A stretch of DNA of 23,662 nt from a virus, in IMG/VR virus record IMGVR_UViG_3300030333_005949, positions 1-23,662 of that record. One strand, 5' to 3'. The notes beneath the pieces are model-generated. The model saw only the letters and a program-made list of their open reading frames with translations. It was not told where the DNA came from and did no database searches. Both the position numbers and the translations under genes were made by a program. Shown in pieces: positions 5,186 through 21,999 of the stretch (position 1 is the first letter of the stretch; every line of letters starts with the position of its first letter).

Positions 5186-6581
5186 AATCTAAATACCTAC
5201 ATTTGCAACCATTTAAATTCTTTGCGCACTGATCTTGGCGCCAATAAGTTTGCTCATATCTAGGGTCTTTAGTTGTCGCGACCTCTTCTATACAAACGAA
5301 GAACATGTCAGGCCTGTTTAAAACGTCTTCTTGTTTATCTGTAGTATCTACTTTTGCTAAATTTTCTACTTTAGATTCTATTCTAACCACATCACCCGCA
5401 ACATATTTAGTTGTACCTGCTTGATCATCACTAAGTGCAGCACTCAAAAGGCCTGAAACCGAAGTTGCTCCAGAAGCAGCATCTTCATCTAACTTAAGTG
5501 TAGTTCCCCCGCTAAACACAATAGTTCTATCTTTATCTATGGCTGCGCTTAGGGCATCCACAGAGACAGATTGAGCCACGGTTCCTGTTTCATTATCCTC
5601 AACGCTACCAGAAAGAGTTCCGCTTAAAGTTGTAGCTGTTGCTGACGCGCCGCTAGACAGTGTAAAAGTAGCACCATTTGTAAATGTAATAACTTTACCA
5701 TTTGCTATAGCAACAGGAAGAGAGTCTACGGTCATAGAGGTTGCTCCATCCGTATAACCAGAAGCATTATTGATTGTGACAGTAGAGAGCGTGGCAGCAC
5801 CATCAGCAGTAACCGCCACCGTATTTTTATCAAAGTTGCCCTGCCACGTCATAGTTAAATTATAGCCATTTTCATCTGCAAATTTTTTATTATTAGCGTC
5901 AGCCAAAGGAATGCCTAAATTTAAACCATTATCTTTTTCAAAAAAAGAAGTAGGCGTTACAACATTATTATCCGCCATCTTCACTTTTTGAGAGATGAAA
6001 TCGCTGCGCCTACCGTAAAAACAACCATCTCCTCTATATTGCCATGTGCAATAATTTGCTATCATTGTTCTCGCTGGGATTTGTACGTCTTCCAACTCCA
6101 ATGGTGAAACCAATTCAAATTCAACAAAATATTTGTTTTCTTGTGTTTTTCTATTGACTTTAAATATATCATCATCAAATCTTGAATCTGGATCTGGAAC
6201 TCCAAAGGGATTTAAATTATCAGGAAAATTTTCATGATCTAAAAATTTAATGAATATTCTTTTTCTTATTATCGTGTTGCCTACTAGGTCTGATCGTCTT
6301 TTAATTGCATCAGTAATAACTCCTTGAGGATTTGCTATTGTCAAAGTGGGTCTGGGCAGCTGACCATCGCCTCTCACTTCAAAGTTTGTCGCTTCAATTG
6401 GCATCGCATAATAAGTTTGTAAAACGCCATGCCTATCCCTAAGCATAACATCCTTCAAATCATTTTTACCCGGATGAAATCTATACAAGCCATCCTCTTC
6501 TCCTAAATCTATTTCGTACAGCTCGATAACTGTTTCCGGATCTAAATCTAATAATGCAGCGTTATGTAATTGAGTAGACAT
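5121..6581 (-). CDS. L: Minor tail protein, lambda gpL-like, iron-sulfur type, with large insertion
   Basis: gpL is a tail-tip protein whose C-terminal domain holds an iron-sulfur cluster through four cysteines. The N-terminal part here (about 1-170) follows the family: LDPETVIELYEIDL, then a nucleation block ending VSPLELEDVQIPARTM. The cysteines are C178 and C187 (ANYCTWQYRGDGC), then C452 and C459 (DQCAKNLNGC). They are followed by the terminal LPFGGFPS motif. The nine- and seven-residue spacings match those I recall for lambda gpL. In lambda the second and third cysteines are only about 23 residues apart; here 264 residues intervene, so the protein is 486 residues against roughly 230 for the family. 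The insertion contains two 55-residue repeats. The stop lies inside the gpK-like gene. Confidence 0.93.
   Translation of the reverse strand: MSTQLHNAALLDLDPETVIELYEIDLGEEDGLYRFHPGKNDLKDVMLRDRHGVLQTYYAMPIEATNFEVRGDGQLPRPTLTIANPQGVITDAIKRRSDLVGNTIIRKRIFIKFLDHENFPDNLNPFGVPDPDSRFDDDIFKVNRKTQENKYFVEFELVSPLELEDVQIPARTMIANYCTWQYRGDGCFYGRRSDFISQKVKMADNNVVTPTSFFEKDNGLNLGIPLADANNKKFADENGYNLTMTWQGNFDKNTVAVTADGAATLSTVTINNASGYTDGATSMTVDSLPVAIANGKVITFTNGATFTLSSGASATATTLSGTLSGSVEDNETGTVAQSVSVDALSAAIDKDRTIVFSGGTTLKLDEDAASGATSVSGLLSAALSDDQAGTTKYVAGDVVRIESKVENLAKVDTTDKQEDVLNRPDMFFVCIEEVATTKDPRYEQTYWRQDQCAKNLNGCKCRYLDYGKYRRGLPFGGFPSIEQYKF
5412..5744 (-). repeat. Two tandem 55-residue beta-rich repeats within gpL
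   Basis: Residues 280-334 and 336-390 of the gpL-like protein align without gaps at about 40 per cent identity. Shared positions include the VDxLxxAI block, I-F before a Gly, and the ends S-G-x-L-S and D-x-x-x-G-T. The Ser/Thr/Ala/Gly/Val composition suggests small beta-domains of the kind found in phage fibres and tail decorations. The repeats lie inside the insertion that separates the iron-sulfur cysteine pairs. Confidence 0.8.
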
Positions 6582-6582
6582 T

Positions 6583-9500
6583 TTACCAACTTGGTCCTAT
6601 GTTAAATCCCGCAAAACCATTTTGCATATCTAAAGTATTTCTTTTAGTCTCATCTGTTTTGTCAGAAGAAGAATTTATTTGTAATTTTTTGCTGCATAAA
6701 TAGTTAAATATTGCAGCTCGTTCTTTCTTAGTTAAGCTTGCCTTAAAAATTAAAATATCACTAATAGACCCATACCAATTTGTATTTCCGTTCGTCGGAT
6801 GATGAGTTTTTGTGCCTCCTATTAACGGCTTAGGAATCCAACTAAACTGGTCAGCCTCAAAAGAAGAGTTAGATACTAAATTTAAATTATTATAAACACC
6901 ATACAAAATGTGATTTCCTCTTTTTCTCGCCGAAACACTATACATCCAAGCTCTACCGGGATTTATTCCATTCGTAAAATCTGTAAATCTTAATCTATGC
7001 GGATTTGGTAACCCTGCTCCCTCAACAGTTGTACCTTGAGTATCATAAAATAAATTAGGATTTTGCCAACTTTCTTGTGGTAAGTATTCGCTATAATCTC
7101 CTCTTCCTATATCAGACCACTGATGCAAAGGCCAACCCCAAACAGATTTCCGGCCGTTCCTGTGGCCAGTCTGTCCCTTCCTAAAAGATCCGTTGTTGTG
7201 GCCGGGCCTATGAAATGGACTACGCCTAGGAACTGCGTTATCCGTATAATCAGAAAATGGCGCCAATAAATATATAATCTCAAAACTTTCCATGTTTTTA
7301 TCTAATTTGCCAGACCTGACCATACCCTCTAAACACATCATAGCTCCGCCGTTAGCATAAGGAGCTGCAGCTGCATTTATGTTAAAAAATAATACAGGTT
7401 GATTGTTGAAATATTTTGTATAGTTTGTTGTAGAAGTATACAGAATAGGACTGCTCCAACCATTTATAAAATTAGGAATGCTGGTGTTTTGAAAATATAT
7501 ATTAGTAGGATCATTTACAGATTTCCAAATCCTAACGCTATCGCCATTTGATGCCGCCACAGATCCACCAGTATCACTATACACATTAGTACCCGCATCA
7601 AAATGCGCTAATAATAATGGGTAATTTGTTGTATTAAGGGTTTTGAAATTTTTAAAAATAAGCAAGTTACCAATTCCGCTGTAGTTAGAGTTGCCGTCAA
7701 TAATTTTTATAGCTTCTCCTGCTTCTCCTCCGCTAGCTGGCTCTGCATCTGTAGTGTTATAAAAAAACTCTCCTGCGTTTACATTTAGAGCGCCCTGTCC
7801 ATCTGCGCCAAATTCTCCTCCATTACCACCGGGAGAAGTTTTATTATTTATATTATCGGTACTGCCTAAAGCTGCGGCTTGAATGCTACCTTGCGTATCT
7901 GTAAAAATAGCATCTGAACCTTCTTTCAAACTAGCGCCACCCAAACTAATTCCAAAGCCTTGGCCTCCTCCGCCTACTCCAGCTAATTGCGTTCCTAAAA
8001 TATCACTTAGCTTATAAGATTGAGAAAAAGTAATAGTGGTAGTAAAAGATCGTCCCTTTCTTTGGTATGCTTTAGTTTGCAATGTTATGTCCGAATCTAA
8101 ATCAGCAGAATTTATATTCAATTTGGCTTGCGGGGATTGTATCATCCCTTCTATATCTAGTGTAGCTATACTATTTTCTCTTATCTGGAAGGACTTCGGC
8201 CAAAAAAACGGATCTCCGCCCCCTCCACCTCCACCTCCGCCGTATATCTTAGCCGAAGCATCTTTTCTGATCGTTAATTTTGATATATTGGTTTGGTCTA
8301 TGTAAATTGCTGCGGTTCCATTTCTGCCATCAGTAGAAGCTGTGACATTTTTATCTCCAACAACAACCTCTCCTCTATAAAGTAAACGTTGAGCTGCCTC
8401 TGTTCTTGCTATATCTGTAAAACCACCATCTCCACCATGACCTCCATGCCCAGCAACCATAGAAGATTTCTCTAAATCCAAAACGACAGTAACCTCTGTT
8501 CCTGCGTCATCTTCAATTCTTCCGCCCGTAGTAATTGCTGCAGTGCCTAAAGTTTTAGACCCAACTGTAAAAGTTTCTGGTACTACAAAATGAACACCAG
8601 TAAAAGAATAGTTTGAAGCGCCTGCACGAAACCTAGTTAGATCTGGATCGCCATTTGCATCTACCAAGCCCCTAGATATCATTTCATTATCAAGCACTGT
8701 TTTTAGATTTATATCAGACTGGCCATCCTCAAAATAAACATACAAAGCTTCCGGCGAACCAGCAGAATTTTTAATATTTGAAGAAGATGAGCTTGGTAAT
8801 GTAGTACTGCCGCTCAACAAACCATTATTTATATCATTATTTGTAATCTTGACATCAAAGTTATCAACAGGGTAAGCGTACACGTACTCTGATTCGTAAT
8901 TTATAGCATCATTTTTATCTTTGTATTGCCCTTTTATTCTATAGTAGTAATCAGAGTCGAAGCCCGGCAGAGCAGCGACATACTCTCCATAGTTAGAATC
9001 TCTATTGTTTGCAGTTCCTTTGGAGTATAATTGATTGATGCCCGTATTGGTCGCATACTTTCTCATGGTGAACGGGTTAGATGGAAAAGAAGAACCGTCA
9101 AAATACTGAAGTTCATCATTTATTTCGAATGTGTGTAAGCCAGACCAAACTCCAGTGGGGCTTCCAGCTCCGGCGACGGTATCTATATTGCCCGCGTATT
9201 CGATAGAATACTGAGTTAAATAATAGCCTGTATTGGGATGATACCAACGTAAAGTTGCTTGGGGTCTACCATCTTTCGAAAAATCTGTAACTGCTCGAAA
9301 TCCAGAAGGATATTGTGGTTTAGGAGCTGTTACCGCAGCGCCTTGAGCTCCAATCGCAGCACTGAAACCAGAGACTTGACCTGTAAATTGAAATAAGATC
9401 CTTCCGCTAGGGTCACTTTGACCATTAAACTGAGAAACAGTATCTAATCTAAAAGTTTGCGTATATAAGCCATTGTTATCTGGTCCAGTTGAAGTTACAT

Positions 9501-9783
9501 CTGGCCCTGAACCAAAATTGTCTTGTGCAAATACAAACTCAAAAGGTATAAATTTATTTTGTCCTGCTACAATTTCAAATGATTGCCCTGAAGGAAAATT
9601 AAATGATTTTGGAGAAAATGATTCATTGTAAGATATTTCTGTTGTGATCGGATAATTACCGCTATTAGTCAAATAAAAACCTGTCCTTATGCCGAAGCCT
9701 GTGACACCAGTGACAGACATACCGGTAACACCTAAAAATTCGTTTCCGGGTATCCTTGAGGTTACTGAAGATGGTATAGACAT
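6583..9783 (-). CDS. Large adhesin: FN3-like, polyglycine-rich and LamG-like lectin regions
   Basis: This 1066-residue protein is probably a virion-attached receptor-binding or adhesion protein. Residues 1-150 resemble an Ig-like domain (FYLTNSGNYPITTEI). Residues 155-305 look FN3-like (PSGFRAVTDF, TLRWYHPNTGYYLTQYSIEY, DYYYRIKGQYKDK). Residues about 440-690 carry Gly-rich segments: GHGGHGGDGG, nine glycines at 515-523, GVGGGGQGF and SPGGNGGEFG. These recall the polyglycine-sheet tips of gp38-type adhesins. Residues about 720-1035 resemble a LamG/concanavalin A-like lectin, ending WYGSISDILIFKASLTKKER. A His/Arg/Gly-rich loop occurs at 855-890. No signal peptide is visible. It sits one base from gpL and four bases from the gpM-like gene, a place empty in lambda. 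Its receptor cannot be predicted. Confidence 0.85.
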   Translation of the reverse strand: MSIPSSVTSRIPGNEFLGVTGMSVTGVTGFGIRTGFYLTNSGNYPITTEISYNESFSPKSFNFPSGQSFEIVAGQNKFIPFEFVFAQDNFGSGPDVTSTGPDNNGLYTQTFRLDTVSQFNGQSDPSGRILFQFTGQVSGFSAAIGAQGAAVTAPKPQYPSGFRAVTDFSKDGRPQATLRWYHPNTGYYLTQYSIEYAGNIDTVAGAGSPTGVWSGLHTFEINDELQYFDGSSFPSNPFTMRKYATNTGINQLYSKGTANNRDSNYGEYVAALPGFDSDYYYRIKGQYKDKNDAINYESEYVYAYPVDNFDVKITNNDINNGLLSGSTTLPSSSSSNIKNSAGSPEALYVYFEDGQSDINLKTVLDNEMISRGLVDANGDPDLTRFRAGASNYSFTGVHFVVPETFTVGSKTLGTAAITTGGRIEDDAGTEVTVVLDLEKSSMVAGHGGHGGDGGFTDIARTEAAQRLLYRGEVVVGDKNVTASTDGRNGTAAIYIDQTNISKLTIRKDASAKIYGGGGGGGGGDPFFWPKSFQIRENSIATLDIEGMIQSPQAKLNINSADLDSDITLQTKAYQRKGRSFTTTITFSQSYKLSDILGTQLAGVGGGGQGFGISLGGASLKEGSDAIFTDTQGSIQAAALGSTDNINNKTSPGGNGGEFGADGQGALNVNAGEFFYNTTDAEPASGGEAGEAIKIIDGNSNYSGIGNLLIFKNFKTLNTTNYPLLLAHFDAGTNVYSDTGGSVAASNGDSVRIWKSVNDPTNIYFQNTSIPNFINGWSSPILYTSTTNYTKYFNNQPVLFFNINAAAAPYANGGAMMCLEGMVRSGKLDKNMESFEIIYLLAPFSDYTDNAVPRRSPFHRPGHNNGSFRKGQTGHRNGRKSVWGWPLHQWSDIGRGDYSEYLPQESWQNPNLFYDTQGTTVEGAGLPNPHRLRFTDFTNGINPGRAWMYSVSARKRGNHILYGVYNNLNLVSNSSFEADQFSWIPKPLIGGTKTHHPTNGNTNWYGSISDILIFKASLTKKERAAIFNYLCSKKLQINSSSDKTDETKRNTLDMQNGFAGFNIGPSW
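6679..7626 (-). other. LamG/concanavalin A-like domain of the adhesin
   Basis: Residues about 720-1035 have the beta-sandwich lectin pattern. The segment LLLAHFDAGTNVYSDTGGSV opens the domain, GDSVRIWKSVNDPTN follows, and NWYGSISDILIFKASLTKKE closes it. The closing stretch is the common 'G.I.dil.f...Ls..Er..i..YL' ending of LamG-like domains. Sugar binding is inferred from the family and no binding residues were assigned. Confidence 0.65.
7714..8466 (-). other. Glycine-rich adhesin region
   Basis: Residues about 440-690 of the adhesin contain at least four glycine-rich blocks separated by beta-forming stretches. One block is an uninterrupted run of nine glycines encoded at 8215-8241. The pattern, a beta-helix-like lead followed by Gly-rich segments, resembles the polyglycine type II tips of gp38-like phage adhesins. 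The structural claim is inference. Confidence 0.6.
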
Positions 9784-9787
9784 ATTA

Positions 9788-11053
9788 TTAAGGTGTCGTT
9801 TCTGCGCGATCTACAGTTATTAAACTTCTAAATGTAACATCTGCAGATACTAAATTTATAGGATACTCAATAAAGTTTACACTAACATTATTATTTTCTT
9901 TGTAGTTTAATGTATGTTCCCAGTTTGGGCAAATAAATGCTTTTCCGGTAATATCATATGGGGCCGGTGGAGTAAATTCAAATTGCTTTTTTCCTTGGCG
10001 ATGTTCAAGAAAATGTACTATAGCCTTCGCCTCTTTGTCAGATCTTGCATCTAGTGAAAACTCCATATTTAACAAACTTTTATTCAATCCATCTTTCGTT
10101 CTAATATAATAATCGCTCTGTACTGGCTGCTTTAAATATCTTGGGGCTTGCTGCACAGATAAACCATTATTTAAATCAAAATAAAATTTATTTTTAGTCC
10201 ATAGAGATGTGAGACCTCCATTTGGCCCATTATTATCTGTAGCTGTACTCTCATTATCTCCAGTATAATAATACCATCCTGAAACATTTGGAACGTAGTC
10301 TCCGCTTAAATAAGCAATATCATGTTTACTATAAGTGGCGCCCTCTTGCCAATATCCTCTTGTTTGATTGAAAGGAATAAAGTACTGTTGCCAATTCATA
10401 GTTGACTGATCTTCTCTATATAAAGTAGTACTAGTATTATTGACGTTTGGGTAATCAAAAGATCTGTCAAAATTTTCTATATAGAATTCATGTCCACTTG
10501 GCTCTTGGTTATATGGAGCAAATGGAGTGAAGAATATACCTGTGTAAGCGCCACTAGGTTTTTCTCCTTTATTAAAGGAATCTTCGAGTAAATGTACTAA
10601 GCTTCTTGTTTCTTTGTCTGATCTTTTGTTAAAATTTAAATTAAATTGTGTCTTTAGCGAGTTCTCACTTTTACTTAAAACATTATAATAACCATCGCCA
10701 AAAGCAATATCGTAACTTTGATTTTGATACGATACAGAAGAACCATAGGAAGGCTCAAAAAATAATTCTTGTGTCCAAGGGCTTTGTGCAGTTGTGTCGT
10801 TAGGATCATTATGCCCTGCACCTGTAGGAGAGTTGGTTGCCGTTGAAACGGCCGCAGTCGTACCACTATAATAGTAATGCCCCGTTGGAGTGCCAAGACT
10901 TTCTGCTGTAGTGGGTACAGGAGGAGTACCTGCTAACGTATAGCCGCTAAAAAATACAATATCATATTGCGAATAGGTATTTCCAATTTCAAAAGACGGA
11001 ACACCAGCAATGTTCGTGACCCCAGACCCTAAAACATATGATTGACTAGCCAT
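9788..11053 (-). CDS. M: Tandemly duplicated minor tail protein, lambda gpM-like
   Basis: gpM-type proteins help form the tail tip. This 421-residue protein holds two copies of the domain. The first is at about 102-212 (YDIAFGDGYYNVL, LNFNKRSDKETRSLVHLLED, FFTPFAPY). The second is at about 300-400 (MEFSLDARSDKEAKAIVHFL, QFEFTPPAPYD, FICPNWEHTLNY). Each is preceded by a short aromatic module, FEIGNTYSQYDIVFFSG (21-37) with GHYYYSGT, and YWQEGATYSKHDIAYLSG (234-251) with GWYYYTGD. These modules recall small carbohydrate-binding (CBM5/12-like) folds. The unit therefore looks duplicated within one gene. GGAAGG lies about eleven bases before the ATG, and the start overlaps the preceding stop as TAATG. 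The gpM assignment is from motif similarity and from the M-before-L gene order. Confidence 0.85.
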   Translation of the reverse strand: MASQSYVLGSGVTNIAGVPSFEIGNTYSQYDIVFFSGYTLAGTPPVPTTAESLGTPTGHYYYSGTTAAVSTATNSPTGAGHNDPNDTTAQSPWTQELFFEPSYGSSVSYQNQSYDIAFGDGYYNVLSKSENSLKTQFNLNFNKRSDKETRSLVHLLEDSFNKGEKPSGAYTGIFFTPFAPYNQEPSGHEFYIENFDRSFDYPNVNNTSTTLYREDQSTMNWQQYFIPFNQTRGYWQEGATYSKHDIAYLSGDYVPNVSGWYYYTGDNESTATDNNGPNGGLTSLWTKNKFYFDLNNGLSVQQAPRYLKQPVQSDYYIRTKDGLNKSLLNMEFSLDARSDKEAKAIVHFLEHRQGKKQFEFTPPAPYDITGKAFICPNWEHTLNYKENNNVSVNFIEYPINLVSADVTFRSLITVDRAETTP

Positions 11054-11850
11054 TAATAAAATTGCCTTCCTGTCAAGTATTCTTGCGAAACAGATATGCT
11101 TCCATCAATATAGCCTCCTTCGGATACCGATAAATTTTGACTAAAGACTTGTCCGGTACATCCAAATGTTGCAATAGAAGAATCTCCGTAAGTAGAAAAT
11201 ACATTTATATTTAAAGCCGCATAATTTCCGGTTATGCTTACTGCGTCGCCCACATCCTCTCCCGCTATACCTAAACTTATTCTAACATTTTCCTTGGAAA
11301 CTCTTGATGGCAATTCATTTCCCACAGTAACCACAGGGTTTCTATCGCAAGAAACAGAATAATCAAAAGAAACCTTTTTATTTACTTTTACGTCTGTTCC
11401 CGCCATATAAGAACGTAAGCTGTGCCCTAATATCAATTCATTTCTTAGGTCGTTATCCGAGTCTCCGTCATCGTCTAATGCGCTTAACTCTCCATAAATA
11501 TCCATCTCGGATCTAAACAATATTGGAGCAAAAGGAGCTACAGAAAAACTAAGAGATCTAATATAACCGCTACTAAATGTCATTCCAGCCAAGCTACCAT
11601 TTAAAGGTTCCCCAGTGTGCTCTATTGCACTCAAAGGATTTAAAAAGTCGTGAAAGCTTCCGGTGCAATAATGAGAAAATGACAAAGTCCCTTTTACAGG
11701 AGAAGTTGGCGCGTATCTAATAACTGAGCCTGTGATATGAGTCACTGGCTGCAAAGAAGCGGATACTCCTAATTCCGCAGACTCGGCCATAATGTTTGTG
11801 TCTGCGATTTTGAGTAAAGCTTTTTCGTATTTTATAAATTTAGTGGCCAT
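11053..11850 (-). CDS. Tail-tube-like or distal tail protein, second paralogue
   Basis: This 265-residue beta-rich protein has no named family that I recognise with certainty. Its middle, residues about 20-130, follows the same order of features as the 315-residue protein encoded at 13811-14758. Both have a strand with ITGSVIRYAPTSPVKGTLSF-like spacing, a D-F-x-N segment, a short acidic G-x-x-x-G block, then GYIRSLSFSVAPFAPILF against GYLTSYSVNCNVQDVPTIDS. Both end in an amphipathic repeat typical of tube-fold proteins. I infer a tail-tube or distal-tail (Dit-like) role from the position between the tape measure and the tip genes. Both ends form one-base TAATG overlaps, which implies translational coupling. 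Confidence 0.6.
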   Translation of the reverse strand: MATKFIKYEKALLKIADTNIMAESAELGVSASLQPVTHITGSVIRYAPTSPVKGTLSFSHYCTGSFHDFLNPLSAIEHTGEPLNGSLAGMTFSSGYIRSLSFSVAPFAPILFRSEMDIYGELSALDDDGDSDNDLRNELILGHSLRSYMAGTDVKVNKKVSFDYSVSCDRNPVVTVGNELPSRVSKENVRISLGIAGEDVGDAVSITGNYAALNINVFSTYGDSSIATFGCTGQVFSQNLSVSEGGYIDGSISVSQEYLTGRQFY

Positions 11851-13808
11851 TAAAGAGTATCATCTATATAAAATTCAACAGTTAATGTTACCGTAGCTTC
11901 TGCGGATCCGCTATCAGCTTCTATCATAAAAGCCAAGTAATCTCCTTGGTTGAAGTCCAGCTTGGCTCGTGGGTAAGTACTAGTATCGGTTTGAGCTGTG
12001 AAATCAGCATAACCTTTTGTAATAATAGTATTTTTTGCAGTGCCTGTGTCTTCAATTTTAGCATTTTGAAAATTAGCTGAAGTAACAGTAGTTAAACTAT
12101 TAGCGGTCACTGCGGTCTCATCGGGAAGAGCGGCCTGACTATAAATATACATATCAACATTACAATCATCAGTTGCACTCGCATTACGTGCCGCAATTCT
12201 AACACTTTGAATTCTGCCGTCGTGAGGAGCAGCAGTTGCAAATTTTGCAGTGATTGGCCCCGCCGCTGCTCCAGCGCCAGTAGTATCAACTGGGGTTGAA
12301 AAAAGAGGGCTATAAGTTTGAGTGCCTGTAAGTATTTTATAAGGTATACTGAAAGTCTGAACAAATCTTCCTCTACAATAATTTCCAACAGTAGTTCCGC
12401 CTTTATCATAATACGCATCCGCTCCAATATTTCCTTTGATGGTAGTATTTCCGCTAGTATCTATATAAAATAAATTGTTAGCAAGAGTGCCATCAAAGCT
12501 AACGGCACTATCACTATAAGAGGTATTTTTATAATGTATACCAAAATAGTTTGTGCTACTTAATCTCATAGCACCTGCCATCCAATTTACTTTCTTTGTA
12601 GAAGACTCATATAAAGGAAATCCAACAACACTAGAATAAGTGGCCGCAGCATCACTAGTTCCTGTTTCCAATAAAATTCTAGCTCCTGCTGTGTCTGCAG
12701 TGATAAAATCTCCAACAATATTCGTAGATGAAGCTGCTGCTACATTTAGCTTGTAGGTGGTTGTTGCTGTACCGATGCCGACATTTCCTGTGGTCGCTGT
12801 TACATTGAACTTATTAGTGGCACTAGTATTACCTGCCTCGTTTGCCTTTGTTAAAGTTAATAAGCTTCCGTTCCAAGTGATGTAAGCAGCGGAATTATTT
12901 CTATTTAGCTCTAATCCTGCGTGCCCAGAACTGGTCGTGTTTTGAAGTGTTAGTACTGGATTTGTATCAGAAGCATCTTCTTTAATGTGAACTCTTCTGC
13001 TAGATATTGACCCTGTTATATTTCCAATACCTACATGTTTATTGGAAGACTCAATCTTCATCGCAGGATTAACAGTTGAGCCGTCGGTGTCGTTGTACAT
13101 AAAATACACATCTCCACCTGAGTTTCTATTTACATGTAAAGTGCCGTTTGAAACAGATCCTCCACTTGCCCTACTGACACCTTTTAAATCAGCTCTACTT
13201 GCATCTATCTGAATGCCATAATCGGTAGTGCCAGAGTCTTTATCTAAGACTAAGACGTCTCCTGTTTCAACGGCAAGTTCGGCGCTCGGAGTGCTGGTGC
13301 CTATGCCCACATTCCCATCTCCTTTTAAATGTATTCCTACTGCAGTGCCTGCGTCTTCATAATGACTAATGCTAAGCCTTCCATCATCATTTGTAGTGTC
13401 ATAGTAGTATCTTAAAGATACGCTCTTATAATTTGCAGCATCAATACCAAACAACATTTGACTATATCTGCCATCTGTAGTTGCAGACGGATTTAAGACG
13501 CTAAGTAGATTCAAATTTGCGTCAGTATTGCCTCGGATCGCTAAAAACGCTCCGGGAGTAGTAGCAGCGCCGGGGCCAACGCCAATGTTACCTCCATCGT
13601 GAATTAAAATTCCATAATTGCTGCCGTCGTCTCGTAGCTTTAAACCATTGCCGTCAGCAGCGTCAACATTTCGTTTTTTGTTTAGGTCGCTTATCGCTAG
13701 TCTTTTTGTGGCGGGATTGCTGTTATCGGCACTATAATCGCCCATAAACAGCAAATCATTATCTGCTGGTGCCGCGCCCAAATTTGGATATTCTAATATT
13801 TTGCCCAT
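11850..13808 (-). CDS. Tail fibre protein with VGIGT repeats
   Basis: The 652-residue product reads as a fibre. Its N-terminus (DNDLLFMGDYSADNSNPATK, residues 17-36) resembles the virion-attachment ends of fibres I associate with marine phages. The shaft is rich in Gly, Ser, Thr, Asn and Asp, with repeated beta-helix turns: GGNIGVGPG (72-80), GDGNVGIGTSTPSAELAV (163-180), KHVGIGNITG (257-266) and TGNVGIGTATTTYKLNV (340-356). Residues about 480-652 form a separate beta-sandwich-like head (GPITAKFATAAPHDGRIQSV, YLAFMIEADSGSAEATVTL) that could bind a receptor or trimerise. No intramolecular chaperone motif was seen. It sits two bases after the 315-residue gene and overlaps the next start by one base, so it is flanked by two similar tail proteins. 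The product is confident as a fibre; the receptor is unknown. Confidence 0.85.
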   Translation of the reverse strand: MGKILEYPNLGAAPADNDLLFMGDYSADNSNPATKRLAISDLNKKRNVDAADGNGLKLRDDGSNYGILIHDGGNIGVGPGAATTPGAFLAIRGNTDANLNLLSVLNPSATTDGRYSQMLFGIDAANYKSVSLRYYYDTTNDDGRLSISHYEDAGTAVGIHLKGDGNVGIGTSTPSAELAVETGDVLVLDKDSGTTDYGIQIDASRADLKGVSRASGGSVSNGTLHVNRNSGGDVYFMYNDTDGSTVNPAMKIESSNKHVGIGNITGSISSRRVHIKEDASDTNPVLTLQNTTSSGHAGLELNRNNSAAYITWNGSLLTLTKANEAGNTSATNKFNVTATTGNVGIGTATTTYKLNVAAASSTNIVGDFITADTAGARILLETGTSDAAATYSSVVGFPLYESSTKKVNWMAGAMRLSSTNYFGIHYKNTSYSDSAVSFDGTLANNLFYIDTSGNTTIKGNIGADAYYDKGGTTVGNYCRGRFVQTFSIPYKILTGTQTYSPLFSTPVDTTGAGAAAGPITAKFATAAPHDGRIQSVRIAARNASATDDCNVDMYIYSQAALPDETAVTANSLTTVTSANFQNAKIEDTGTAKNTIITKGYADFTAQTDTSTYPRAKLDFNQGDYLAFMIEADSGSAEATVTLTVEFYIDDTL

Positions 13809-13810
13809 TG

Positions 13811-14758
13811 TTAGTCTTTGTTGTAGTAGTCCTTAAATTGTAAATTTACACTTAAAACACCATCTACGGCCGATTCAATACTCTCTGATACTAAATGCCC
13901 AGTGGTGCTTAAAAACTTATATCTTGTTATTCCATCTCCGTCATCCCCCAAGCATTCTCCAGCGTTGTCAACTAAACACAGCTTACCAGTGCCCGCAGGA
14001 ATTACAGTATGCCCATCGAGGGTATCTTCTTTTGCTCCTACTAATATTTCTATCCCTATAGTTTGATAATTTCCGCTTCGTACATTATCTATAATATTAG
14101 CTGTGTCGTAATCGTCTATTTCTACAGTAATATCTGTGGTAATTTCTATAGGATATTCTGTTAAAACTTCAGATGGGGCATAATATATTTCACTTGTTTT
14201 TTGATCTAAAGTATATATAGGAACTCTATTAATGTTGTAAGTTTGAGATGCAGATACTGCTCTATTTGTTCCTGAGCCGTTAAATGTCATTAAAACAGAC
14301 TCATGATTTACAACGCCTAAATTTTGTAAGGGTGCGGTACCAGAGTAATCCAACTCTCCTTCTCTGACACCGCTACCCATTTGGCCAAAAACTACAAAAG
14401 ATGAGTCAATAGTAGGCACATCTTGAACATTGCAATTAACGGAGTAGCTAGTCAAATAACCAGTATTAAATCCATAAACCTTTTCCGCTCCGTCCATTTG
14501 AACGCCATGAAGCAAAGTTCCAGAAACTGCTCCTTCTCCTGTCATATTTAGAACAGGGTCTTGATAGAGCATGTCTCTTGTCATGGAAAGTTCTCCTTGA
14601 AGAGGTTCTGCTATAACTTCTTGTACAAATCCTGCGCCAAGAGCTTTAACTTGTTTTTGTCCGACTGTATAGCCAGCGCTAATATTGCGAATGCCAGAGA
14701 CACCTGTGCCTCCCATGAAAAACATTTGCTCGTAGCTTGGTGACGCGTTATTAGGCAT
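13811..14758 (-). CDS. Tail-tube-like or distal tail protein, first paralogue
   Basis: This is the first gene after the tape measure, overlapping its stop by one base (TAATG; the only AAGG is about three bases from the ATG). The 315-residue protein is beta-rich. Segments include GAGFVQEVIAEPLQGELSMT (41-60), GEGAVSGTLLHGVQMDG and GYLTSYSVNCNVQDVPTIDS. It ends with LSVNLQFKDYYNKD. It shares the order and spacing of these features with the 265-residue protein encoded at 11053-11850, but overall identity is low. In many siphophages a distal tail protein follows the tape measure directly, and that is my preferred guess; a tube subunit or tube terminator is also possible. The acidic C-terminal third (VEIDDYDTANIID, NAGECLGDDGDGITRYK) might bind metal, but no defined motif is present. 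Confidence 0.6.
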   Translation of the reverse strand: MPNNASPSYEQMFFMGGTGVSGIRNISAGYTVGQKQVKALGAGFVQEVIAEPLQGELSMTRDMLYQDPVLNMTGEGAVSGTLLHGVQMDGAEKVYGFNTGYLTSYSVNCNVQDVPTIDSSFVVFGQMGSGVREGELDYSGTAPLQNLGVVNHESVLMTFNGSGTNRAVSASQTYNINRVPIYTLDQKTSEIYYAPSEVLTEYPIEITTDITVEIDDYDTANIIDNVRSGNYQTIGIEILVGAKEDTLDGHTVIPAGTGKLCLVDNAGECLGDDGDGITRYKFLSTTGHLVSESIESAVDGVLSVNLQFKDYYNKD

Positions 14759-17700
14759 TATCCTTGTCTTGCTGTTTTACTTAGCGAGCCGCCGATTCTT
14801 TGCTCTTGCGTTATCACGTCGATAACCGCAGCTCTGATTCTTTCACTCAATTCCTTGCCTTGAGTTGCTTTATCCGTGTTGGATTGCTGGTCTGCATTTT
14901 CATTGCCTGTTGCAGTCGAGCCTTGTCCGCCTCCGCCGCCTCCAACATTAACATGAATAGAAATATTATTTGTATTCGCTGCGCTTTGCGTACTTAATGG
15001 AGCGGCTGCTGCGCCACCAACCATGCCTCCTGTCTGCATAGTTGGAATTAAGCCTCCGTTCAATCTACCCATAAAGCCAAGACCATATTTCTTTACAGCT
15101 TTATTGTTCATAACGAATTCTCCTCCGGCCATATATGCAGGAACGCTATCTCTATTTGTAAATCCTCTGCCTATCATGCCTCCTCTTTGACGGCCGAGAT
15201 CTATACCTAGCAAATCTCCACTTTGCATTAATGTTTTAAAATCTGGATAACCGTGCTGTTGTGCAAATTGATTTTCTCCTCCTGCTTTTACGATAGCTCT
15301 ATCTAAATCTACTTGTCTAGACAAAGACAGATCTTGAGGTTTAACAGCTCCAGCCATAGGATCGCCTTTGGACATCATTCCTTGCATCTTATTGCCAAGT
15401 GCTCCTAGGCCTTTGCTTATTCCAGCAGTCAACAAGGTGGTCAAAAACATATTTTTAAGGCTGTCTTTTTCTGCTTGCTTCTGCCTTCTTTCTTCTTCTT
15501 TTCTTCGCGCTTCTTCTCGAGCTTCTTGCAGCTCTGGATTATCGGATGCTAAAAAGAATCCACTCATTCTTGGGCTGCTTATGCTTTCGTTAACCATCAT
15601 TGCGCCACCATTCGCAAACCTAGGTGCTGCGCCAAAATTTATAGCATCTAACCTTCCGCGACCCATCGCTTTGACGGCATTTTTATTCATAACGTATTCG
15701 CCCGGCTCTAACATGGCTGGAACACGATCTCCATTACCACTACCCGGAACAAATGCGCCTTTGTTGTAACCTTGAAAGTTTTTAAACGTGTCTTGTCTAA
15801 ACCCTCCGCTTGTCCCTAAACCAATTAAACTAGTCAAGTTACTCATAGAATAATCTAAAGAAGCTCGACGAATCATCCTTAACATATCAACAGCAACTCC
15901 AGTGAGCGCATCTTCAAAACTCGTGGTTTTATCCAAAGCAGCCTCCATTGCTCCGACCATGCCTTCTTTAAATTGCGCAGGCAGATCTTGACCGAGTCTA
16001 GCGTATATAGTCTCTGTTTCGTCTAAAACTTTGTTAAATCCTGCTTCTAAACCACCTGTAAATGTGGTGTTTGTTATCCTTACTTGTTCTTCTTTTTCCC
16101 GAGTTATCTTTTCTTGTTCTTCTAACTCTTTGGCGGTTATGCCAGCTTGCTGATACCCTAGTTTTATTTGTCTTTCTGTTTGGTTTATAGTGTCTATCTC
16201 TTGCTGCGTTCTGCCTTCTTTTAGTTTATTGATTTGCTCTTCTACATCTTCTTGATCTTTTACATCTAATAAAATTTTAGCAGTGGCGTCTCTCAGTTCT
16301 TTTTGTCTAGCATAATACTGATCAGCAGTCATTCCCGCAGGTATAGGGACTGATACTGGTTCTAATCCGGTTCCCACAGCTGAACCATCAGGCCTAAGAG
16401 AACTTCCAGCTCTTATTTCTTTCACTCTGGCGGCCGAACCTGCGATGATTGACTCTTTTTTTCTCTCTAAAACTGACGCCTGTCCCCTAAGGTTCAATAC
16501 ATCTACCATTTTTGCCCGTGACTCCCTTGCGTTTGTAACCCCAACCGAAGCAGGATCATTTTTAATAGCGTCTTGGAGTGCATCTGCTTTATTTAACTTG
16601 TCTTTTATCTGACTATCTATCGAAGCAATTTCTGTTTCTTTTCTTAATTGTTCTTTGGCTATATCACTAGCCTTTATCATTTCGTCAGCGAGTTTATCGA
16701 TAGCTAATCTTAAATTGTCTTGACTCGATAGCAATGCTAAATTATTCTTTATTTGAAGATCTTGCCTTTGTAGTTCTGCAACTTTTGAAACTGCACTTTC
16801 TGTTTGAGCCCTTCTCTCCATTCCAATATTTCTTACAAGCATTCGTGAGCGTATTCTACGTGAAGCAGAATCTCTGGTAGCTTGAGTTCCCATTCCTCTG
16901 AATGTGGCAGGGTTTTCTAGCAAAGCTTGATCTCTCATATTAGCAATAGCTACTCTAGATTTTTCCTGCATAAAAAGAGCTTTTCTTTTATCTAAAACTT
17001 CTGACTGAACATTTGTTAAAGCTTTTTCTTTTAAAGTATTTTGTTCACGAAGTTTTTCTAATTCAAACTTTGCGCTGTTAATCTGCTTCTCTACTTGAAA
17101 AGTCGCCTGTTGATTGGCATATTCTATTTGAAGTTGCTTTATTTGACTTTGTATTTTTTGATTTGCTTCCTTGTTTGCAGTTGTAAAACTTTTAAATGCT
17201 TCTAGAGCTTGCTCTACGTCGCCAGTAAGAAAATTATTTGCAGTCTCTCTTAAACGCGTCAAAGCATCATCTCCAACAGCGGCGCCTCCTGATTTTATAT
17301 TATCCAATAAAGATTTAACATTTTTGGCAGCAAAAGTCGATCGAAACGCTGTTTGCCTATCCGTTAAACCAGAATCAAATTGATCTCTACGCAAAGCAAC
17401 AGCGCCAAGTGTTCTTCCAGCTCCAGACAATAAACCCGACTGAGCTGAGCTATATGCTCCACGTAAAGTTTGAAGGTTTTTTGAAAAAGCTGCTAATTGA
17501 CCTAAAGTTTCGCTTACGCGAATCATAGAATTTCTTATGTCCGTAAATGACTCTAAAGCTTGAGCAGCTCTTTTTACAGTTTGTTTGTTGGCTTTTCTTG
17601 CCTCTTCTCCTTTATTCAAAACCATTTTAATTACATCTCCAAAAAGATAATCTGAGAACAGCCTACCGTCAGTGGAATCTTCTAAATGTGAAAAGAAATC

Positions 17701-20700
17701 GGCTATATCTTGTTTAGCCATGTCTGCGAAAGGCCCTCCAAAACTCATAAGTAAATCTGCAATTTCATTTTCTCCAAAGCCCAAAATACCCATATTAGTT
17801 TGAGCTTTAAGCTCTTTGGAAAACTCGTTTAATTCGTCTGGGCTTAGAGTATCATTTATCATTTTGAAAAACTTTCCGTAATCCTTGCTTAAATTTTGAA
17901 GTCCCTCTGCGCCAATTTCAAATGAAGTACTAAACCTTGGACCCATATAACCCTTACTACCAACATTCATATCCGAGCCCGGAATAAGAGTTTTTACTTC
18001 ATCAAAATATCTATCAACAGCTCCTCCGCGCATACCAATCATTTTGCCTAAATCAACCGTATCAAATCTACTAGCGGTAGCTAACGCTTGTTTGAGCGTA
18101 CCACTTCCAGCTCTTTGCTGTTCATATGTTGCTAGAGCTTTAGTTAATGCTGTTACGTCTGAACCTGCCGCAGCAAAACTCTCTTCTAATTTAGTGCCTT
18201 TTATTAACTCAAAGTTTTTGGCTAACCTCTTTTGCGCATCCTCTAATTCTGATTCTGATAGTGCACTTGCTATATCTTCTTGTGCTTTTATATACTCTCT
18301 GGCCGCATTAGTAGTGTCACTTGTAACTTTATCGTACTCTTGAGTTTCTCTTTCTAGTTGTTCAAGACTTCTGCCAGCATCTGCAGCAGCTATAGCCAAA
18401 CCTCCTAAACCTCCTACAGCAGCTCCTATAAGAGCACCAACAGGACCAGCTATCATTCCCAATGACGCTCCAGTTCCTACACCACTTAGAGCTCCTGATG
18501 CAACTTGTCCCGTTTTATTTCCTTCTCCAGCTATTTGTTCTATACCGCCTGCTAACATTGGAGCGCCCATTGCTAAACCTAGTCCGATGCCCATTCCGCC
18601 CATCGGACCTTTAGACAAGCTAGTATTTGCTCTTGATAATCCACTCCTTATTCTTCCTGTTGTTCTTCCTAGTAAACCGGGACGCGTCGGACCTATAAAA
18701 TCTGGAGATCCGGGGGCTGCTGCAACCCCACCCATAGATGCGCCCGCAGCAACTACCGCAGCTGCAGCTGTAGCTTTTAAACCGTTAGCTGCCTGTGTTG
18801 CAGACGTAGCCAAAAGACTAAGATTTTTATCAGCTATACCTAATTTACGTCCAGCGGACATGATATTTTTGGTGAAATCCGCCTGAGAAGTAATTCCTTT
18901 GTTTAAATTTGCGATATTTGCATCTACCGAAGAATAAAAAGATTGCAACGCTCTATTGGTGAATGTTAAACCTTTTGTCATCTCGTTTAATACCATAGTC
19001 ATCTGACCTCCAGCAACTGCAGCAGGATTCAACGCTCCCTTTTTATAATTTGGAATGAATCCTCGAGCTCCTGTGAATACATCTGCTAAACCAGCAGGTT
19101 CATCACGAGTATTTGTTACAGCAAATCCTCTAGGATTTTGTGGGCCAACAAGTCGTGAAGATTGGTTGATCCTGATAGATCCTAAAGGTGCTCCTGCGGC
19201 AACTTCTCTTTCCACTGCGTCACCTAAAGCGGCAAAGTTAGGCACATAACCTTTTGAAGCCCTTGGTCTGCTCGAGTTCCAACTAATAAAAGCTTTGTCT
19301 AATGCAACAATTTTTTCTGCCATACTCTTGACGTTGTCTTTAGAGCTTGATATTTTAAAGTCTCCTCCAGTAATTCCTTTTGCCATCTCTGATGGCTGAT
19401 CAAATAAATCTTTGACTTCTGGCGACATCATCCCATAAGGAACGTCTAAATTTTTTCCTTTGTTTGGAGCTGCAGCTCTTATACCTAAAGCTGTACTTAC
19501 TCCAACTTCAAATGCAGCGCCAGCAGCGGCACTAACAGCACCTCTACCTCCTTGCGCCGCGTTTAGATTGCCAATGACTTCTGACTTTGTGATATTGCCC
19601 GCAGGAGGCGTTATACTTTTTGCGTACTTTACTGTTTCGTTATATATTGCATTTTCAATTCCTGTTTTTATATCAAAAAGTTCATCAGCTTGACCTTTTG
19701 GCTTTTTCGCATAAGTGTAAGCTGGAAACCTTATTGAAGTAGGACCTTTGCCTAATAAATTTTTAAAATTATGCTGATAAAAGCCTCCAGTATTTCCTAC
19801 CGGAGGAAGTAGCATTGCAGCCGAAGTAGAAGTGAATGTGTTTGTTGCTTTCTTTTGAAGTGTTGCCTTATTTCTATCATAAGCATTAAGAGATAACCGA
19901 GCAGACCCTTTTGGAGCCGAGGGTAGCAAAGAAGCGCTAACACCTAGGTCACGTGCTGCACTATCTGCCATCGAAGGCGTAATATTAGTTCCACTATAGA
20001 ATCCACTTGAATCAACTCTTTTGCCTGTGATAGACTGAAGTACGCTAACAGATCTATTTGTGTCAACAAAGTTTGGCACATAGCCGGAAGCCCCTCTGAT
20101 TGGTTTTGCTCCAGAAGGCATACCGTACTGAGCAACCATATTAGGATTAAATATAGCGGAGCCGCCGTTGCTATAATTAGGAACTATATATTCTCCAGTA
20201 TTAGCAATCATTGTGCCTCTGCGGCCTCCGCCAAAAGCAAAATTTGGAATAGCTACAGGCTTAGCTGATGGGCTAACACCTCCAACGCCACGACGTATGT
20301 CATGAACTTCTCCTGCCACACCCGGAATAAAACCTGAAGCGCCTCTTTTTGACTGTCCTACTTTTTGACCAGAAATAGCGCCCAAATTAGTTAGAGCTGT
20401 CGGCATTGACCTTAATGTTGCAGCAATTTGTTTTACAGACTCTTCCTGATTTTCCATTTGAGTCGCGGCAACACTTGCATAATCTGCAATAAGTTTTGTT
20501 TGTGCGGCTATATCTCCAGTATGACCATCTATAGCGGTAGCTAGATTGGCCTCCGACTTCATTACAGCCTCTATAGTTTTTTCTAAGTTTGCTCTTTTTT
20601 GAGTCTCTGTGGTAATTCCTGCGAGCGCTGGCAAAGACTTGGCTAAATAACCAATAGTATTTGTAAAAATTGTTAATAATATTCCGCCTATGGCAACCAA

Positions 20701-21999
20701 ACCGGGACCACCGATTACATTCTTTATACCTTTCAAAATGCCATTCGCAACTTCACTTCCAACTCCTTCTCCATCTATAACATTATTAATTTCTGACAAA
20801 ACAGATTTTAAAGGATCTAAAATTGCTTTAGCTATAGGCTCAAAAGTTTGCTTGCCTATATTTTCCTGCAGTCTTTTAAACTCTGTTGCAGTTTGAGCGG
20901 CTAACGCAGAAAGACTTCTGTTTAACTGGGCGGTAGCTTGATCCGCTTCATTAGTAGCAGATGCAGAAACTTTTAAAGCTTGACTGAAGGTGGACTGCTC
21001 TCTGTTTAAATCTTTTAATATGGCAGAAAGAATGTTAGCTTGGAACACGCCTGCAACTTGCTCTCTTAAATAAGCTTGGCTATTATCAGCTAAAGTCGCA
21101 TATGACTTAGCGAAATTATCCAAGATTTGAATCGCTGGCAACGTATTACCTTGAACATCTTTCACCGCAACATTGAAGCTTTCCAAAGCATCTAATGTGC
21201 TTTGACGTTGCAAACGAGTGAAAATGGTTTTCATGGCGTTACCAATCACAGCTCCGCCTCGACCTGTGGTTTGCTGCACGGAAGTTACGATAGCATTTAA
21301 TTCATCAAATCCAACCTTAGCATCTTTTGCCGAAGATCCTACTCGACCGATAGCTTCAACCAAATCTCTGGCTCCAACAGCAAATTTTGTTTCAACTGCA
21401 ACAAATTTATTGACAGAAGAAGTTGTGGTAATCATCGCATTGTCGAATGCGTTGACAGTAGCAGTCAAGGAACTTACTGCTTTATCAGCATTAATCCCAG
21501 TCAACCTTACCAACGTTAAAGCGTCAGAAGTTCTTTTTAACGTTTCTTCTGTTTTGAGACCTTGACGAGCAAACTCGAGCGCAGCCTTGGTTGTATCTTG
21601 GAATGCTGTAGCATTTTTCTTACTAATATCGAATAATCGATTTCCAAAATCTTCAAAGTTTTTATTGCTTAATTGTAGAATACGATTTATGTCTGCAAAT
21701 TGTTTTCCTACTTCAACTGTAGTTTTTGCTAAATCTTTGAATGCTTTTGATACGCCTCCGATAACTGCGGTTGAAGCTCCGAACGCAATAACACGTGCGT
21801 TCGACGCCGCAAGAGCCGAGTCGAACATATTTAAATCACCAGTGATTCTACCTAAGGGCTGACGAAATCCTTTGTCGTTGAGAGTAAGCTTTAATTGATT
21901 TGCGCTTTTTTGTAAGTTTTTATTAGCTAACTTTACTCCTTTTTCGATAGATTTTACGAGCTCGGCAGCATTAGCGGTTGCATTAATTGAAACAGACAT
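14758..21999 (-). CDS. Tail length tape measure protein
   Basis: This 2413-residue protein sets tail length and is expelled ahead of the DNA on infection. Residues about 50-400 match the TP901-type tape measure core (FARQGLKTEETLKRTSDALT, GRGGAVIGNAMKTIFTRLQR). Hydrophobic Gly/Ala segments at about 428-460, 1131-1155 and 1178-1208 could cross membranes. The middle has G(Y/F)(V/I)PN(F/Y) repeats and a nuclease-like domain. Residues 1600-1850 and 1900-1975 are long charged helices, probably coiled coil. Two VPAxxxxGE(Y/F)VMN modules lie near 2090 and 2285. The C-terminus (IRAAVIDVITQEQRIGGSL) resembles tape measure ends of other siphophages. No lysozyme or HExxH motif was seen. It is nearly three times the length of lambda gpH. 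The ATG lies 22 bases after the upstream gene, without a Shine-Dalgarno sequence. Confidence 0.96.
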   Translation of the reverse strand: MSVSINATANAAELVKSIEKGVKLANKNLQKSANQLKLTLNDKGFRQPLGRITGDLNMFDSALAASNARVIAFGASTAVIGGVSKAFKDLAKTTVEVGKQFADINRILQLSNKNFEDFGNRLFDISKKNATAFQDTTKAALEFARQGLKTEETLKRTSDALTLVRLTGINADKAVSSLTATVNAFDNAMITTTSSVNKFVAVETKFAVGARDLVEAIGRVGSSAKDAKVGFDELNAIVTSVQQTTGRGGAVIGNAMKTIFTRLQRQSTLDALESFNVAVKDVQGNTLPAIQILDNFAKSYATLADNSQAYLREQVAGVFQANILSAILKDLNREQSTFSQALKVSASATNEADQATAQLNRSLSALAAQTATEFKRLQENIGKQTFEPIAKAILDPLKSVLSEINNVIDGEGVGSEVANGILKGIKNVIGGPGLVAIGGILLTIFTNTIGYLAKSLPALAGITTETQKRANLEKTIEAVMKSEANLATAIDGHTGDIAAQTKLIADYASVAATQMENQEESVKQIAATLRSMPTALTNLGAISGQKVGQSKRGASGFIPGVAGEVHDIRRGVGGVSPSAKPVAIPNFAFGGGRRGTMIANTGEYIVPNYSNGGSAIFNPNMVAQYGMPSGAKPIRGASGYVPNFVDTNRSVSVLQSITGKRVDSSGFYSGTNITPSMADSAARDLGVSASLLPSAPKGSARLSLNAYDRNKATLQKKATNTFTSTSAAMLLPPVGNTGGFYQHNFKNLLGKGPTSIRFPAYTYAKKPKGQADELFDIKTGIENAIYNETVKYAKSITPPAGNITKSEVIGNLNAAQGGRGAVSAAAGAAFEVGVSTALGIRAAAPNKGKNLDVPYGMMSPEVKDLFDQPSEMAKGITGGDFKISSSKDNVKSMAEKIVALDKAFISWNSSRPRASKGYVPNFAALGDAVEREVAAGAPLGSIRINQSSRLVGPQNPRGFAVTNTRDEPAGLADVFTGARGFIPNYKKGALNPAAVAGGQMTMVLNEMTKGLTFTNRALQSFYSSVDANIANLNKGITSQADFTKNIMSAGRKLGIADKNLSLLATSATQAANGLKATAAAAVVAAGASMGGVAAAPGSPDFIGPTRPGLLGRTTGRIRSGLSRANTSLSKGPMGGMGIGLGLAMGAPMLAGGIEQIAGEGNKTGQVASGALSGVGTGASLGMIAGPVGALIGAAVGGLGGLAIAAADAGRSLEQLERETQEYDKVTSDTTNAAREYIKAQEDIASALSESELEDAQKRLAKNFELIKGTKLEESFAAAGSDVTALTKALATYEQQRAGSGTLKQALATASRFDTVDLGKMIGMRGGAVDRYFDEVKTLIPGSDMNVGSKGYMGPRFSTSFEIGAEGLQNLSKDYGKFFKMINDTLSPDELNEFSKELKAQTNMGILGFGENEIADLLMSFGGPFADMAKQDIADFFSHLEDSTDGRLFSDYLFGDVIKMVLNKGEEARKANKQTVKRAAQALESFTDIRNSMIRVSETLGQLAAFSKNLQTLRGAYSSAQSGLLSGAGRTLGAVALRRDQFDSGLTDRQTAFRSTFAAKNVKSLLDNIKSGGAAVGDDALTRLRETANNFLTGDVEQALEAFKSFTTANKEANQKIQSQIKQLQIEYANQQATFQVEKQINSAKFELEKLREQNTLKEKALTNVQSEVLDKRKALFMQEKSRVAIANMRDQALLENPATFRGMGTQATRDSASRRIRSRMLVRNIGMERRAQTESAVSKVAELQRQDLQIKNNLALLSSQDNLRLAIDKLADEMIKASDIAKEQLRKETEIASIDSQIKDKLNKADALQDAIKNDPASVGVTNARESRAKMVDVLNLRGQASVLERKKESIIAGSAARVKEIRAGSSLRPDGSAVGTGLEPVSVPIPAGMTADQYYARQKELRDATAKILLDVKDQEDVEEQINKLKEGRTQQEIDTINQTERQIKLGYQQAGITAKELEEQEKITREKEEQVRITNTTFTGGLEAGFNKVLDETETIYARLGQDLPAQFKEGMVGAMEAALDKTTSFEDALTGVAVDMLRMIRRASLDYSMSNLTSLIGLGTSGGFRQDTFKNFQGYNKGAFVPGSGNGDRVPAMLEPGEYVMNKNAVKAMGRGRLDAINFGAAPRFANGGAMMVNESISSPRMSGFFLASDNPELQEAREEARRKEEERRQKQAEKDSLKNMFLTTLLTAGISKGLGALGNKMQGMMSKGDPMAGAVKPQDLSLSRQVDLDRAIVKAGGENQFAQQHGYPDFKTLMQSGDLLGIDLGRQRGGMIGRGFTNRDSVPAYMAGGEFVMNNKAVKKYGLGFMGRLNGGLIPTMQTGGMVGGAAAAPLSTQSAANTNNISIHVNVGGGGGGQGSTATGNENADQQSNTDKATQGKELSERIRAAVIDVITQEQRIGGSLSKTARQG
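15010..15759 (-). repeat. Two VPAxxxxGE(Y/F)VMN modules in the tape measure C-terminus
   Basis: Residues about 2081-2132 contain GNGDRVPAMLEPGEYVMNKN, AVKAMGRGRLDAINFG and FANGG. Residues about 2273-2327 contain TNRDSVPAYMAGGEFVMNNK, AVKKYGLGFMGRLNGG and QTGGM. The two copies share the order D-x-VPA, GE(Y/F)VMN, AVK and GxxGRL, separated by about 190 residues that include a strongly charged helix (EAREEARRKEEERRQKQAEK). Modules of this kind are common at tape measure C-termini. They may contact the tip complex. Confidence 0.85.
19045..19236 (-). other. REVAAG...NTRDEPAGL module in the tape measure protein
   Basis: Residues about 922-985, between two G(Y/F)(V/I)PN(F/Y) motifs, read ALGDAVEREVAAGAPLGSIR, then INQSSRL, then NPRGFAVTNTRDEPAGL. 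I associate this arrangement with a short module recurring in tape measure and other structural proteins of environmental phages. I do not know its function. Confidence 0.5.
19300..19602 (-). other. PD-(D/E)XK nuclease-like domain inside the tape measure protein
   Basis: Residues about 800-900 hold a candidate catalytic set: Glu831 in AGAAFEVGVSTALG, Asp852 in NKGKNLDVPYG, and Asp880 with Lys882 in ITGGDFKISSSKDN. A helix with KSMAEKIVALDKA follows. The order (Glu on a helix, Asp on a strand, D-x-K on the next strand) is that of the PD-(D/E)XK fold. The spacings of 21 and 28 residues are plausible. The call rests on motif reading only. Confidence 0.5.
20800..21852 (-). other. TP901-type tape measure core
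   Basis: Residues about 50-400 contain the conserved helical core of TP901-family tape measure proteins. Recognisable stretches are ARVIAFGASTAVIGGVSKAF, DALTLVRLTGINADKAVSSL, GRVGSSAKDAKVGFDELNAI and VQQTTGRGGAVIGNAMKTIF. The family match is by pattern recognition. Confidence 0.85.

Follow-up and report, generated by a model that had tools for sequence, protein, structure and literature searches.

A candidate PD-(D/E)XK-like nuclease domain lies between repeated motifs in a tape measure protein of uncultured tailed phages

Introduction

Tape measure proteins (TMPs) occupy the tail tube, are released at entry, and are known to serve as rulers, as channels and as vehicles for cell-wall enzymes. 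The locus described here raises the question of whether such a protein may also carry a nuclease. It is a 23.7-kb IMG/VR virus record (IMGVR_UViG_3300030333_005949), analyzed over its whole length of 23,662 nucleotides and referred to below as the window. An earlier note on this DNA had singled out residues E831, D852 and D880-x-K882 of a predicted TMP as a possible PD-(D/E)XK active site. A lone E, D and DxK in one protein mean little. In the open-licence literature we found neither phage TMPs described with a PD-(D/E)XK domain nor the repeated motif that delimits the segment carrying these residues.

Results

A lambda-like tail module with a long TMP

The window carries a lambda-like tail module on the minus strand. 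Its largest tail ORF lies upstream of the tail tip genes, with lambda-like L, K-like and J genes downstream:

14758..21999, minus strand: tape measure protein (TMP), 2413 aa, a single uninterrupted ORF
9788-11053, minus strand: minor tail protein (Phage_min_tail)
5121-6581, minus strand: L-like protein of the lambda-like tail module
4796-5185, minus strand: JAB-domain protein (weak) of the lambda-like tail module
767-4066, minus strand: J-like tip protein of the lambda-like tail module

The 2413-aa ORF matches Pfam PhageMin_Tail (1.3e-22), NCBIfam tape_meas_TP901 (TIGR01760; 2.4e-29) and several PHROG tape measure families, and is classed by these profiles as a TIGR01760-type tape measure protein. 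The assignment of the candidate domain to a TMP, made previously, is confirmed by the TIGR01760 match and the lambda-like tail-tip neighbors. The tail-region ORFs at 6583-9783 (1066 aa), 11053-11850 (265 aa), 11850-13808 (652 aa) and 13811-14758 (315 aa) gave no Pfam match, and the last three gave no PHROG match either.

Residues 1169-1269 of the TMP (about 18193-18495) resemble a glycine-rich hairpin, as in TMP membrane segments; their sole match (NCBIfam pdsO, 6.7e-07) falls far below that model's cut-off. Such a hairpin would fit membrane insertion.

A repeated motif delimits the segment and marks one TMP type

The candidate residues lie in a 271-aa segment flanked by two copies of the motif G[FY][IV]PN[FY]. 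The surrounding features of the TMP are:

20671..21870, minus strand: conserved N-terminal TMP region, residues 44-443 (iterated profile, matched in 105 ORFs of the set)
20314..20343, minus strand: degenerate first motif copy GASGFIPGVA, residues 553-562 (sequence inspection)
20092..20250, minus strand: conserved block before the domain (IPNFAFGGGRRGTMIANTGEYIVPNY..GGSAIFNP), residues about 584-636 (consensus of 68 related TMP regions)
20068..20094, minus strand: upstream delimiting motif GASGYVPNF, residues 636-644 (motif family from the IMG/VR scan)
19255..20067, minus strand: inter-motif segment with the nuclease-like domain, residues 645-915 (MAFFT alignment A1; AlphaFold mean pLDDT 79)
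19231..19260, minus strand: downstream delimiting motif ASKGYVPNFA, residues 914-923 (sequence inspection)
19045..19071, minus strand: further motif copy GARGFIPNY, residues 977-985 (sequence inspection)

Relatives were gathered with a degenerate DNA pattern for A-x-G[FY][IV]PNFA over IMG/VR, which yielded at least 120 stretches. Among the pattern matches listed, nearly all fall within very long ORFs with up to eight motif copies. Of the distinct ORFs with two or more copies, 97 of 139 have the N-terminal region of the window TMP, and many of the others are cut off by locus ends; we therefore regard the motif as the marker of one TMP type. Its occurrences in genome contigs are for the most part in unrelated proteins from cultured bacteria; Flavobacteriales/Flavobacteriaceae and Verrucomicrobiales MAG contigs include TMP-like ORFs that carry the nuclease-like domain. 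The repeated motifs themselves may serve for processing, for binding to the tube or as linkers.

The candidate residues are strongly conserved in a divergent family

The four residues and the contexts previously quoted for them were verified in the TMP ORF. The range first proposed (residues about 800-900) covers the putative active site, but the folded domain is wider:

19264..19866, minus strand: folded domain, residues about 712-912 (from the predicted secondary structure in both models, and homology)
19507..19509, minus strand: E831, motif I (E114/D5 of 119 domains)
19444..19446, minus strand: D852, motif II (D116/119)
19360..19362, minus strand: D880, acid of the (D/E)xK motif III (D87/E32 of 119)
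19354..19356, minus strand: K882, lysine of motif III (K119/119)
19312..19314, minus strand: K896, conserved K/Q in the following helix (K94/Q11 of 105)

The order of elements in the folded domain is strands, two helices, a helix with E, then D, a strand with DxK and a helix with K, and the spacing from D852 to D880 is 28 residues, the PD-(D/E)XK expectation between motifs II and III being roughly 10-30.

The 119 domains, from 116 ORFs among the motif-gathered loci, were collected with an iterated profile rebuilt after masking of the motifs, since a first version that included GYIPNF had spread over unrelated segments. In a motif-masked single-sequence phmmer search, 24 other domains were linked directly to that of the window, the best of them L176 at E about 1e-78. 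The family is highly divergent, comprising 47 clusters at 40% identity with a mean identity of 22% between cluster representatives. Against this background the four residues, whose invariance in homologous TMPs had been proposed as a check, prove strongly conserved, with position 880 exchanging D for E.

Two MAFFT alignments that were not fitted to the motif give the same picture. In A1, built from 56 inter-motif segments with a mean column identity of 14%, E187, D208 and K238, corresponding to E831, D852 and K882, are among only four (nearly) invariant columns, the fourth being G827; the counts at the four candidate positions are E52/D4, D56/56, D37/E19 and K56/56. In A4 (33 sequences) they are E31/D2, D33/33, E21/D12 and K33/33. 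Every row of both alignments has an acidic residue or lysine at the four positions, and free D/E exchange falls exactly at the acid of (D/E)xK, the picture expected of a PD-(D/E)XK active site. Since these residues stay fixed while the rest diverges, the alignments support a putative catalytic site: across very divergent TMPs, the four behave like catalytic residues.

Predicted fold

AlphaFold2 models were examined for the window segment (pTM 0.69, active-site blocks mostly at pLDDT 79-96) and for a compact homolog, L067 (pLDDT 86, pTM 0.80). Both consist of strands followed by three helices, the third carrying the E, with the D at a short bridge and, after it, a short helix, a strand with (D/E)xK and a helix with K. 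In the window model, E831 lies within a long helix (172-194). Both models place a three-stranded sheet ahead of the E helix, unlike the textbook order. In a canonical core the first strand would follow the E helix and precede the D strand, and the stretch at that place reaches a pLDDT of only 67-70 in the L067 model.

Foldseek/VIA-align comparisons of both models with the PDB, and of the window model also with BFVD, retrieved no restriction-endonuclease-like fold, the match that had been proposed as a structural check. No other fold matched convincingly either, the highest Z being 4.4 and the lowest E 0.075. The domain found chance matches only in Pfam, PHROG and PDB sequences and is a family absent from these curated libraries. 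An hhalign comparison with an Mrr_cat alignment built in this analysis aligned the FE helix alone, at a non-significant probability of 0.4%. Scans of viral contigs with the whole TMP or the domain as single proteins gave no match, and neither did the domain or segments of five relatives in a 50,697-record phage collection, in which no cultured phage was found. The PD-(D/E)XK proposal is upheld in its catalytic-type conservation, D/E exchange and fixed lysine, but not by a fold match in either model.

This outcome bears on the possibility of a metal-dependent enzyme of another fold, for example an RNase H-like or unclassified nuclease or a phosphotransferase, in which an E-D-(D/E)xK site was reached independently. 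Such an enzyme would be consistent with the failure of either model to match a restriction-endonuclease-like structure and with a modeled strand order that starts with a three-stranded meander. However, a GxxFE helix, a D, a (D/E)xK strand and a K/Q helix form the established order and spacing of PD-(D/E)XK enzymes, and a lysine two residues past a D/E-exchangeable acid is rarely fixed elsewhere. We consider another fold the strongest of the alternatives, although an unlikely one, and the best reading to be a PD-(D/E)XK-like nuclease of divergent sequence that is probably ejected along with the TMP.

A core domain, a second module and other cargo

Among motif-bearing TMPs, through which the set was gathered and to which this and similar fractions refer rather than to TMPs at large, the domain is found in 72 of the 81 that include the TMP N terminus and at least 600 aa past the first motif. 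Most of the nine profile misses show a diverged FE/FD/(D/E)xK segment by eye. Given this prevalence, we take the nuclease-like domain, as defined by sequence profile, to be a core part of this TMP type. A second module lies beyond the downstream motif:

19087..19233, minus strand: second conserved module (..AVEREVAAGAP..IR..NPRGFAVTNTRDEPAG), residues 923-971 (profile matches in 124 ORFs)

It occurs in 74 of the 81 fully covered TMPs, lies less than 200 aa after the nuclease-like domain in 97 of the 110 ORFs with both, has R-E, G, N-P-x-G, V-x-N and D-E-P as near-fixed residues, and matched no known family. Its consensus, LxdAIxREXaAGxPxsqIRxxxxxxLxxxxNPxGLxVxNTrDEPxG, is conserved even above the nuclease-like domain.

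In the window TMP, the nuclease-like domain is the only enzyme-like domain assigned. Segments between the same motifs in sister TMPs, both in ORFs with the TMP N terminus, match a GNAT acetyltransferase (PF00583, 22.3 against a cut-off of 20.7 bits; L101, 6771-7301, plus strand) and a nucleotidyltransferase-associated domain (PF16581, 34.2 against a cut-off of 26.7; L076, 4895-6148, minus strand). Enzymes in this position suggest a modular cargo platform, and the resemblance of sister inter-motif segments to enzymes supports a cargo reading of the nuclease-like domain.

The L076 segment has a P-loop and a HIGH nucleotidyltransferase-like part. Several further segments drew attention by eye only and found no confirmation in Pfam. 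Protein-kinase-like segments occur in L037 (3876-4442, minus), L072 (2307-3191, plus), L064 (6439-7419, minus) and L029 (10608-11285, minus), those of L037, L072 and L029 with glycine-loop or DLHGSNY/DPG-like motifs; Pfam found no kinase in the L037 and L029 segments. HAD-like segments (MYDWDGTI or DLDETLL) occur in L095 (850-1275, plus), L006 (2855-3223, minus), L024 (6094-6516, minus) and L050 (2215-3492, minus), and those with DWDGT in L006, L024, L045 and L095; Pfam found no HAD domain in the L095 segment. An R-STS-ExE segment of L064 (7933-8550, minus) is ADP-ribosyltransferase-like, and Pfam found nothing in this or the kinase-like segment of L064. P-loop segments are present in L024, L045, L099, L101 and L190, and HExxH-like segments in L006 and L012.

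The prevalence of the domain could also be taken to mean that it serves the phage's own DNA, or tail assembly or entry, for instance by trimming a genome end or holding the DNA terminus, rather than acting on host DNA. Near-universal presence (72/81) is expected of a core function more than of optional cargo, and TMPs are known to adjoin the DNA terminus in filled tails. On the other hand, TMPs normally function without a nuclease, and the adjacent inter-motif segments vary and hold unrelated enzymes, for which cargo is the better fit. We judge an own-DNA role improbable, at nearly the same level as another fold.

Integrity of the predicted site

Among 80 well-occupied columns of the 119 domains, the lowest entropies belong to G827, K882, D852, E831, F830, K896 and D880. 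Counted by cluster, motif I is E46/D1, motif II D45/47, the motif III acid D31/E16 and the lysine K47/47. A catalytically dead domain, retained as a structural binder of DNA or metal, would account for the occasional substitutions (five D at 831, three non-D at 852), but with little else conserved the 47 clusters always keep the lysine and hold the acids almost as strictly, and the lysine or acids are usually the first residues lost in dead nucleases. The suggestion that the domain might be inactive and serve only to bind DNA is disfavored by this conservation of a complete site, and we regard it as very unlikely. Chance resemblance without a functional site, conceivable in that E, D and DxK are frequent in any 270-aa stretch, is refuted by conservation, since the four residues rank in the top seven of 80 columns across 119 sequences.

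Discussion

We hold it probable, if well short of certain, that the segment between the motifs forms a nuclease domain of its own, metal-dependent and with a PD-(D/E)XK-type site, that is a standing part of the TMP across a large group of tailed phages that are uncultured. A nuclease is the likely reading, and the architecture is broader than the earlier note saw.

The position of the domain, its family and conservation, the motifs on either side and the TMP around it come directly from the analysis above; fold class, catalysis, ejection and target are inferred as follows. The TMP, stretched inside the tail tube, would exit ahead of the genome and insert in the inner membrane; the lambda TMP adjoins the inner-membrane proteins ManYZ during injection (PMC13190303). 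The nuclease-like domain would then fold on the cytoplasmic side and, with Mg2+, cut DNA through a predicted active site of E831, D852 and D880-x-K882, with K896 as helper. We infer that it may reach the cytoplasm folded and cut DNA there, the most likely targets being the host chromosome or resident plasmid or prophage DNA, in host takeover or exclusion. The phage's own ends would be a less likely target and are the main functional rival.

More tentatively, and with somewhat less than even confidence, the TMP may be a modular delivery rod, in which a core PD-(D/E)XK-like nuclease is combined with exchangeable motif-bounded enzymes (GNAT, nucleotidyltransferase, kinase-like, HAD-like and ADP-ribosyltransferase-like) and injected with the genome for host takeover. 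Such a rod would be the equivalent, carried by the tail, of polyvalent and polymorphic toxin proteins. If a conserved nuclease does reside in the TMP, the first phage protein to enter could act on nucleic acid before phage gene expression, a trait invisible in cultured models, as no entry of the 50,697-record collection matched. With the delimiting motif, cargo of this kind can be sought simply in many metagenomic phages, and the question of what tails inject becomes testable.

Compared with the PD-(D/E)XK superfamily (Mrr_cat, Hjc, restriction endonucleases), the domain shares the order and spacing of a helix E, a D, a strand (D/E)xK and a K/Q in the next helix. It differs in that no known member could be matched to it by sequence or fold, in a helix LxxLFG inserted between D and DxK, in a β meander before the E helix, and in its location inside a TMP.

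TMPs with cell-wall hydrolase domains exist, for example T5 pb2 and those of mycobacteriophages. These likewise hold an enzyme within the TMP, but their target is peptidoglycan and not nucleic acid.

We know of no G[FY][IV]PNF-delimited segments in the polyvalent proteins of phages and conjugative elements. Those proteins, the nearest neighbors in concept, are large, are injected, and combine unrelated enzymes such as ARTs, peptidases and nucleases (PMC5512222). They are head-, MuF- or polymerase-associated, and the main text of that study lacks the word "tape" (PMC5512222), whereas here the carrier is a TMP.

Sle1-type TMP-related effectors also have exchangeable functional domains (PMC13277306). 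They belong to actinobacterial injection systems and carry C-terminal modules, with no PD-(D/E)XK domain described in the available part of that source (PMC13277306). The precedent for a nuclease in a TMP-related protein is Tme, an endonuclease effector related to tapemeasure proteins, which belongs to the contractile injection system of Streptomyces davawensis and is delivered by a tail-like particle (PMC11126660). The nuclease of Tme is C-terminal, of the EndA-type DRGH/H-N-N class, and not of a phage; in contrast, the candidate nuclease described here is internal, PD-(D/E)XK-like, and part of phage TMPs.
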